A stretch of 43,525 bases of DNA from Erythrobacter sp. (GTDB taxonomy: Bacteria; Pseudomonadota; Alphaproteobacteria; Sphingomonadales; Sphingomonadaceae). This document shows positions 27,332 to 29,388 of this stretch, piece after piece. A program made the translations under genes and the position numbers. How positions within the stretch are numbered: position 1 is the stretch's first letter; every line of letters starts with the position of its first letter. Below the pieces are notes generated by a model. The model was not told the DNA's origin. It worked only from the letters and a program-made list of their open reading frames with translations, and made no database searches. The stretch is taken from positions 1 through 43,525 of the forward strand of contig PNJY01000009.1 in the NCBI GenBank assembly GCA_013822125.1, in the 5' to 3' direction.

Positions 27332-28279
27332 TCAGTGCCTTGGGGGTTCGCGCCGCAGCATCCATCCACCTTCCTCGCAGGTTACCAGCACCAGGCCAAG
27401 ATTGCCGCCGTCGCCCCGTTCCAGTTGGTCGAGCAGGCGGGCCGCCGCGCCGCCGCGAGGCTGCTGACCCAAAACGCCGATCGCCCGCACCAGCACACCG
27501 AGGCGCACCGCGCGAGGGGCATCGGGCCGATAGAGCAGGCCGCCGCCGCATTCGCTGACGCCCCTCTGCCATTCCCGCTCGATGCACCAGTCGAGCGCTT
27601 CGGCGGCATCGGCCAGATGCGCGGCGCTCTGCGCGATGGCAACGGGATCGAGCCAGTCCGCCTGCGCAAGGGCATTGCGGATGCGCACGCGGTCAAAATC
27701 CTCATCGGCATTGGACGGATCGCTCACCGGAATGGCACCTGCGACACGCACCAGTTCGCAAAGCTCGTGCTTTCGCCAGGCGAGCAGCGGCCTGACAAGC
27801 CTGCGCCGCGAATCGGGGACATTGCCGCTCGCACGCGCGCCCGCAAGGCCCGAAAGACCGCTGCCCCGATTGAGCCGCATCAACAGCGTTTCCGCCTGGT
27901 CATCGGCATGGTGCGCTGTGGCGAGCAGTTCCAGTCTGCGCGCCTCCATCCATTCATCCAGTGCCCGATAGCGGGCTGCGCGCGCCTCTGCCTGCAGGTT
28001 GCCCCTGCCCACCTTCACCGGCAATATGGCATGCGCAATTCCAAGGTCACGGCACAGCCGGGCAACCATTTGCGCCTCATCGGCGCTTTCCGCACGAAGG
28101 CCATGATCGACAGTCGCCGCCTCGACCAACCCGGGACGCGCAGCCTGTGCGAGCAGGAGCAGCGCCAGACTGTCGGGCCCACCTGACACTGCGACACCCA
28201 GCCGCTCGCCCGCGGGCCACAGCGGCGCGCAATCGTCGCGAAAGCGCGCGATCAGGTGCGGGTCGGGCTGCCTGTCAAT
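27332..28279 (-). CDS. tilS: tRNA(Ile)-lysidine synthetase TilS, probable AUU start
   Basis: 315 residues from the proposed start. It makes lysidine at position 34 of the AUA-reading tRNA-Ile. The PP-loop ATP-binding motif SGGPDSLALL and the blocks VDHGLR, ATAHHADDQAETLLMR, RPLL and DPSN are all TilS signatures. The only GTG in frame (28189) falls inside the PP-loop strand, and no ATG/GTG/TTG lies between it and the in-frame stop at 28286-28288. The extra 30 residues upstream (PHLIARFRDDC, PAGERLGVAVSGG) match TilS N-termini. ATT at 28279-28277 has AGGTGA 6 bases upstream and overlaps the ybgF stop by 5 bases; CTG at 28255 is the alternative. The C-terminal part is shorter than in long TilS forms. 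Confidence 0.9.
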   Translation of the reverse strand: MDRQPDPHLIARFRDDCAPLWPAGERLGVAVSGGPDSLALLLLAQAARPGLVEAATVDHGLRAESADEAQMVARLCRDLGIAHAILPVKVGRGNLQAEARAARYRALDEWMEARRLELLATAHHADDQAETLLMRLNRGSGLSGLAGARASGNVPDSRRRLVRPLLAWRKHELCELVRVAGAIPVSDPSNADEDFDRVRIRNALAQADWLDPVAIAQSAAHLADAAEALDWCIEREWQRGVSECGGGLLYRPDAPRAVRLGVLVRAIGVLGQQPRGGAAARLLDQLERGDGGNLGLVLVTCEEGGWMLRREPPRH

Positions 28280-29249
28280 TGCATTTCACCTTTTGTCGGT
28301 CTGCATCGAACTGTTCCTTGAGGCGTCCGGCGGCAAGTGCCGGATAAGTCTCGCCAAACTCGGCAAGCGCGATGCAGGCGCGCTTGGTATCGCCCATCTT
28401 CACCATGCTTTCGGCAAGGAACAGCAAGCTGTCGCCAGCGCGCGCCGCCTGCTTGTCCGCCTGGTAATTGCGCAGAAACCAACGGGCTGCTTCCTCGGTC
28501 TGGCCATCGTCGAGGAAGGCACGCCCCATCAGATTGCGGCCAAAGGTGGCCATCGGATGGCCAGGATAACGATCGAGAAAAATGCCCAGTTGCTGGCGTG
28601 CCTCGGGATAAAATCCCGCGCTCCACAGGCGAAAACCATAGGAATATTCGTCCGCGCCGGGATCTTCGGTCTGCGGCTTGGCAATAGCCTGAACCGCCGC
28701 CAGTCGCTCCTGGCTGGGGCCAACCGCGCTCGCAGCAGGTGTGGTCGCCCGCGGGGCAGGCTGCGATGCACCGCCAGTCATGGCCGCAAGGTTGGCGTCG
28801 GCAGCCGACGGGGATTGAGAGGAGGGGGTGACGGCCGACTGTGGGCCGGTCAACGCCGGTTCAGCCTGCACGGGTGGAGCCTCGATCGCGGCCAAGCGGC
28901 CTTCGATCTGCGAGATTGCATTGGCGTTCTCCTCGCCGCGCGCGGTGAGCTGTTGAAGTTGCCGCTCGAGCGCATCGAGCCGCACCAGGATATCGGTGAC
29001 TGCCGTGGTCGAAGGCGCTGCGGTGGTTGAGGTTGTCGTCTGCTCCGATTGCGGGGCGGTGATCTGCGGTTCGAAGAAACGCCCGTCCCCGCCGGGGAAG
29101 ACCTTGCGTTGCAGCGCGCGCACTTCGGCTTCAATCTTGCGCAGCCGCGCGTCGGGCGAAGTATCCTGTGCCAAGGCCATGACCGGCACCGCCAGCAGGC
29201 TCAGGGCCGCGCCCGCAACTAGTATCCGGCCGAATGTCAATGTTGCCAT
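28275..29249 (-). CDS. ybgF: YbgF/CpoB-like periplasmic TPR protein
   Basis: 324 residues. A signal peptide (about 1-24, LVAGAALSLLAVPVMALAQ) is followed by a short coiled-coil heptad segment (RLRKIEAEVRALQRKV). Next come a long Thr/Ser/Ala/Pro-rich linker with a second coiled coil (DALERQLQQL), and a C-terminal TPR domain with YSYGFRLWSAGFYPEARQQL, then GRAFLDDGQTEEAARWFL. This is the architecture of CpoB/YbgF, which coordinates peptidoglycan synthesis with Tol-Pal-driven outer membrane constriction. In alphaproteobacteria ybgF often precedes tilS, as here, but tolQRAB-pal are not in view. The ATG at 29249 lies 10 bases after AGGAG; the ATG at 29258 is only 1 base from it. Confidence 0.85.
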   Translation of the reverse strand: MATLTFGRILVAGAALSLLAVPVMALAQDTSPDARLRKIEAEVRALQRKVFPGGDGRFFEPQITAPQSEQTTTSTTAAPSTTAVTDILVRLDALERQLQQLTARGEENANAISQIEGRLAAIEAPPVQAEPALTGPQSAVTPSSQSPSAADANLAAMTGGASQPAPRATTPAASAVGPSQERLAAVQAIAKPQTEDPGADEYSYGFRLWSAGFYPEARQQLGIFLDRYPGHPMATFGRNLMGRAFLDDGQTEEAARWFLRNYQADKQAARAGDSLLFLAESMVKMGDTKRACIALAEFGETYPALAAGRLKEQFDADRQKVKCN

Positions 29250-29388
29250 GGATGCCATGCTCCTTGCTATCTGTGCCCGCAGCGGGGCTAGCCGCGGTCC
29301 TTGTAACGCGATGGATGAACAGGGGCGGAATCCTGCCCCAGGCGCGCCCTGCCAGTCGAGCCGGTACCTGTCGAAAACGGGGGAAAGT

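Follow-up and report, generated by a model that had tools for sequence, protein, structure and literature searches.

The window, a stretch of 43,525 nucleotides from Erythrobacter sp. (contig PNJY01000009.1 of assembly GCA_013822125.1), carries on its reverse strand a tilS gene preceded by a ybgF (cpoB)-like gene. The features at this junction are as follows.

27332–28279, reverse strand: tilS, tRNA(Ile)-lysidine synthetase, as read from AUU; 315 codons plus stop (TIGR02432, PF01171)
28277–28279, reverse strand: ATT, proposed tilS start codon; homologous position conserved in relatives, in a frame without a canonical start before the PP-loop
28286–28291, reverse strand: AGGTGA, Shine-Dalgarno-like by its sequence and computed duplex, with 6 bases between it and ATT
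28286–28288, reverse strand: TGA closing the tilS frame on its upstream side, in frame
28253–28255, reverse strand: CTG, alternative start proposed earlier; column not conserved as CTG
28187–28189, reverse strand: GTG, first canonical codon of the tilS frame, within the PP-loop and an unlikely start
28275–29258, reverse strand: ybgF (cpoB)-like gene, upstream of tilS; TIGR02795 and TPR models match, all under their cut-offs
28275–28277, reverse strand: TGA stop of the ybgF-like gene, having the last base of ATT in common (ATTGA); offset +2 from ATT

The tilS product scored 157.8 bits against TIGR02432, above the cut-off of 93.6, and 158.6 bits against PF01171. It contains the PP-loop SGGPDS, and the protein has a single match in its own genome at E <= 0.001 (completeness 99.75, contamination 4.77). 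Its neighbour reached 59.8 bits against the YbgF model TIGR02795, below the cut-off of 90.1, and is named ybgF-like only.

From stop to stop, the tilS frame spans 27332–28285 (317 codons). The first-pass annotation had claimed that no ATG, GTG or TTG (hereafter canonical start) precedes the PP-loop in this frame, and this holds from the TGA at 28288–28286 down to the PP-loop, the first such codon being GTG 28189 within GCA GTG TCA GGT GGG CCC GAC AGT. It had also placed AGGTGA six bases before ATT 28279, inside the end of ybgF; the coordinates are correct, and the duplex of this motif with the anti-Shine-Dalgarno string used was computed at -6.9 kcal/mol. TilS-like sequence had further been noted for about 30 residues above the PP-loop. 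These 30 residues lie outside the coverage of the TilS HMMs, because the best matches begin at frame residue 29–30, but relatives do cover them, with matches beginning at query residue 2–8 in the nearest 14. Within the last part of ybgF, and in the same frame as tilS, a short frame reading ATG CAG ACC GAC AAA AGG TGA (28306–28286, reverse strand) shortly precedes ATT. Some relatives that lack the in-frame stop may use an ATG near the position of 28306 to start tilS.

Start codons across the genus, the family and beyond

We compared 199 tilS 5' ends, 198 from genomes of the family (109 of the genus and 89 of 66 other genera) and one from a distant relative outside the family (L111). A tilS gene was found in 111 of the 114 genomes of the genus, and 109 of these 111 could be used, G028 and G034 holding fragments without a usable 5' end. 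In the family sample, 143 of 149 genomes gave a match; the 89 loci of other genera, out of 140 genomes with a match, comprise the 29 top-scoring ones and 60 selected manually with a preference for better matches. L110, from a duplicate of the L029 genome, was excluded, and the non-ATT class includes three loci placed there manually (L183, L191 and L194). Another five loci of the family (L233, L235, L237, L238 and L240) stand outside the count, and none of the five has ATT at the start place. Because hexamer and position decided which loci entered the ATT class, counts of ATT within that class are true by definition.

AUU, AUA or AUC (AUH) occupies the tilS start place in 99 of the 199 loci (ATT 96, ATA 2, ATC 1), in 61 of the 109 loci of the genus, and in at least one genome of 31 of the 67 genera; ATT is found in 38 of the 89 loci of other genera. 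The 14 nearest relatives (L002–L015, 80 to 61% identity) read ATT GAT at this place, except for two related genomes (L011 and L013) in which ATA replaces ATT and the hexamer is ATA GCA. In L034 the place is taken by ATC GAT, and the stretch tested holds no canonical start. The first-pass annotation had proposed conservation of ATT in related genomes as a check, and ATT indeed recurs at the homologous place in many of them. It had also allowed that a sequencing error, creating a missed ATG, could be the cause; since the same ATT-GA recurs in dozens of genomes, error and chance are excluded, and a lost ATG is rejected as well. As judged by sequence comparison, AUU, AUA or AUC at the tilS start is conserved over species.

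A second large group of the genus has GTG at tilS (43 loci so labelled), typically in CAAGGTGAAGTGCAGCTAA. In this group (L030, L038, L041–L053 and others) the distance from AGGTGA to GTG in CAAGGTGAAGTGCAGCTAA is unusually short, and by eye CTA or CTG two codons further on is also common. Outside the family, no AUU-started tilS was seen among the matches listed: all 45 loci compared carry a canonical codon between -14 and -60, a criterion laxer than the test within the family; two of them (L280 and L284) have ATTGAT in the stretch besides the canonical codon.

AUH and canonical starts tend to exclude each other. Counted in codons from the PP-loop, the stretch from -22 to -75 lacks a canonical start in 61 of the 99 AUH loci versus 1 of the 100 others, that from -24 to -60 in 77 versus 1, and that from -26 to -50 in 80 versus 4. 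The lone exception among non-AUH loci at -22 to -75, L154, perhaps starts tilS at CTG; it has CTG codons near where the GTG group has GTG. Fisher's test on the first form of this table, which ignores kinship, gave 2.7e-17. In 10 independent pairs on the tree (starred branches), the presence of a canonical start was opposite in 7.0 and in the same direction in 0.1 on average, with a median p of 0.016 (range 0.008–0.219), the tree being a quick one with SH-aLRT support only and 79 of its 195 inner branches open. From the in-frame stop to the PP-loop, 19 loci are devoid of canonical starts, and all 19 are ATT loci; the genome of the window is not among them, because GTG 28189 lies in its stretch. 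A canonical codon at -22 to -75 does occur in 38 of the 99 AUH loci: in 17 it lies only downstream of AUH, often as TTG at a leucine column, 14 have only other codons upstream, and seven (L004, L012, L016, L113, L135, L150 and L159) have ATG 7–11 codons upstream, which may be the real tilS start in these seven.

The start codon where the ybgF stop lies elsewhere

In 57 of the 98 ATT/ATA loci, including that of the window, ybgF ends at the TGA within ATTGA, an arrangement we call coupled; in other genera 36 of the 38 ATT loci are coupled and two are uncoupled. Overlaps of the AUGA type are a common stop/start arrangement of coupled genes. The tilS overlap resembles them in that the upstream stop and the start share bases, and differs in its AUU start and in the relative reading frame, which is the alternative one (AUUGA). 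The remaining 41 loci keep ATT (39) or ATA (2) even though neither T of ATT belongs to their ybgF stop. The stop is wholly clear of the start codon in 38 of these and shares only the A in three (L032, L060 and L096). Its first base precedes the start codon by 24 to 51 bases in 30 of the 41, by 16 or 17 in four, by 9 in three, by 6 in one and by 2 in the three that share the A. The context is mostly GGGGGCG-CTG-ATT-GAT or similar. Retention of ATT or ATA in these loci separates the third base from the constraint of a stop codon.

Among uncoupled loci ATG is rare at this place. Forty-four uncoupled loci of the genus, 39 chosen by hexamer and five by hand (L022, L028, L034, L084 and L104), have ATT in 37, ATA in two, ATC in one and ATG in four. 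ATG GAT stands at the place of ATT GAT in L084 and L104, and L028 and L022 have ATG in a less certain register; L022 sits in the GTG group, and L076, an uncoupled ATG locus of that group, was left out of the 44. On the tree, two changes between ATG and ATH are needed among 46 uncoupled loci. The third base of the start has a pairwise identity of 0.711, a value biased upwards because most loci were selected by their ATT; fourfold sites near the PP-loop reach 0.348, and the remaining synonymous sites 0.588. For comparison, the internal isoleucine codons in the available sequence of 39 uncoupled loci of the genus are ATC 162, ATT 79 and ATA 10. In a subset of 12 loci, the block from Shine-Dalgarno sequence through ATT to GAT is nearly invariant, and third-position information drops from about +9 onwards.

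The two arrangements also differ in the ribosome binding site. Computed Shine-Dalgarno duplexes have a median of -5.2 for coupled loci (57), -9.3 for uncoupled loci (41) and -2.9 for the background, and the difference between coupled and uncoupled loci gave 5.6e-8 in a Mann-Whitney test that ignores kinship. In 11 of the 57 coupled loci the duplex is no better than the background median.

These data bear on the reading in which the AUU start has no regulatory meaning and is an evolutionary trap, set by the overlap with the ybgF stop and tolerated thanks to the ribosomes that coupling brings. The exact overlap in the coupled loci, so prevalent in other genera, speaks for it, and in the genome of the window the codon is locked, because ybgF would lose its stop if ATT became ATG. 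Against it stand the 41 loci that retain ATT or ATA behind a stronger Shine-Dalgarno sequence although their third base is free to change, as well as the mere two ATG/ATH switches on the tree and the low identity at fourfold sites. We regard this reading, which departs from the explanation favoured below in the last, conjectural step only, as a serious possibility that falls short of an even chance.

If the block around ATT were an RNA stem-loop or an operator, its conservation would be uninformative on the start codon. Conservation of ATTGAT at all three codon positions in uncoupled loci would fit such an element, but ATG replaces ATT in some relatives, and RNAalifold, run on a start-anchored, gap-free alignment, found no consensus structure in either class, the result being the same as with column shuffles. 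We therefore consider this improbable. Slightly less credible still is a real start at another non-canonical codon, either CTG 28255, which the first-pass annotation had named as an alternative, or the codon preceding ATT in uncoupled relatives, often CTG. Although CTG is the commonest codon of its leucine column and a start there would leave the PP-loop whole, just 49 of the 98 ATT/ATA loci have CTG in that column, the others having CTA (14), TTG (12), TTA (5), AGC (4), CTT, GCG and others, and CTG 28255 is rejected because the column varies; the codon before ATT likewise varies in uncoupled loci (CTG, CTC, CCG, ACG, ATC, GTA and others). Least credible of all is synthesis of TilS from a canonical start upstream within ybgF, by read-through or frameshift at the in-frame stop, for which one could cite the in-frame ATG at 28306–28304 upstream of the TGA at 28288–28286 and five loci without the stop (L112, L115, L117, L122 and L125) that have an ATG about 10 codons upstream and no ATT, but which is rejected for most loci, because 74 of the 98 ATT/ATA loci (40 of 57 coupled, 34 of 41 uncoupled) lack a canonical start from the in-frame stop to ATT or ATA, and the stop itself differs among species (TGA, TAA or a doubled TAG-TGA).

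Proposed translation from AUU and comparison with known non-canonical starts

That tilS starts at AUU, as the first-pass annotation had proposed, is supported by the comparison of 199 loci through near mutual exclusion with canonical starts, retention of the codon in uncoupled loci, placement of the Shine-Dalgarno sequence, and ATG at the matching place in a few relatives. AUU is, with high confidence, the predicted start codon of tilS in this genome. In the explanation that we favour, and hold to be very probably right, TilS would be translated from AUU 28279, which ribosomes would reach by way of AGGTGA inside the end of ybgF, part of them being those that terminate ybgF at the overlapping UGA. 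Coupled tilS genes would borrow terminating ribosomes, and uncoupled ones would have a strong binding site rather than AUG.

AUU starts are rare and normally disfavoured, and initiation factor 3 (IF3) discriminates against them. Initiation at AUU would presumably proceed with fMet-tRNA and a third-base mismatch, and would therefore be weak and subject to discrimination by IF3; little TilS would therefore be made, and perhaps more when IF3 is short, as for infC. This suggests that tilS output is kept weak, and it may be tied to IF3. Control of tilS by IF3, an idea already raised in the first-pass annotation, is plausible on general grounds. We know of no role of TilS in initiation, so any such control would be one-way. 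A more ambitious proposal is that selection keeps AUH as a valve, by which TilS would follow IF3 and the stringency of initiation in step with infC, limiting lysidine and sparing the methionine tRNAs with anticodon CAU, so that loci freed from coupling would gain a stronger binding site and not AUG. We put this forward tentatively and think it rather unlikely as a whole. The uncoupled loci argue for selection for weakness, and the coupled ones, including that of the window, could be locked by the overlap.

As regards the tRNAs concerned, TilS is what enables cells to decode AUA. ARAGORN predicted, in 30 of 38 tRNA loci, four distinct genes with anticodon CAU. By their features, we take two of them to be initiators (C1, A72) and one an elongator methionine tRNA, and L300 looks like tRNA-Ile2. 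Passages of one source describe TilS as essential and as modifying tRNA-Ile2 (PMC10128029). An AUU-started tilS was not found in a limited search of the open-licence PMC literature, and the available excerpt of PMC4227106 reports no tilS start codon.

If this reading is correct, gene finders limited to ATG, GTG and TTG would truncate or misplace the essential tilS gene in many species, and the short list of genes with conserved starts of the AUU type would gain a tRNA-modification enzyme. The series of AUU, AUA, AUC, AUG and GUG in related species offers a natural means of testing whether weak starts are selected. The case also suggests a connection between IF3, which polices start codons, and the enzyme responsible for telling AUA and AUG apart.

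The closest parallel is infC, which encodes IF3. In 17 of 18 infC loci of the genus (L201, from the genome of the window, L211–L213, L215, L216, L218 and L220–L229), ATA stands in frame behind AGGAGA; in L219 (genome G037) these bases occur in another frame, as an indel would cause, and the infC frame appears broken near its start. ATG or TTG follows 7 or 8 codons after ATA, and a gene finder would choose that codon. The binding site and the infC starts already known point to ATA as the probable infC start in the genus. Other families of the order contributed 11 loci, of which eight have ATA, two have ATC and L203 has neither; L204, an ATA locus, has an in-frame ATG two codons earlier. In Escherichia coli, infC is described as starting at ATT and as autoregulated (passages of PMC5472188). 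Both infC and tilS are translation-related genes with an AUH start and a Shine-Dalgarno sequence, conserved over species, but infC encodes the very factor that discriminates against its own start.

Two further genes invite comparison. An AUU start is said, in part of PMC1780047, to reduce expression of pcnB in E. coli; like tilS, pcnB encodes an RNA-acting enzyme and starts at AUU, although the enzymes differ. In Streptomyces, according to passages of PMC5472188, the GTC start of sigR is repressed by IF3, as found by experiment; it is GTC in 32 of 34 species and GTT in two, has been misannotated in genomes, and holds the protein low. The likeness to tilS lies in a conserved non-canonical start, whereas sigR has GTC, encodes a sigma factor and was established by experiment, the tilS start being predicted by comparison. 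Conserved non-canonical starts are thus already known from infC, pcnB and sigR, and tilS would join this small set.
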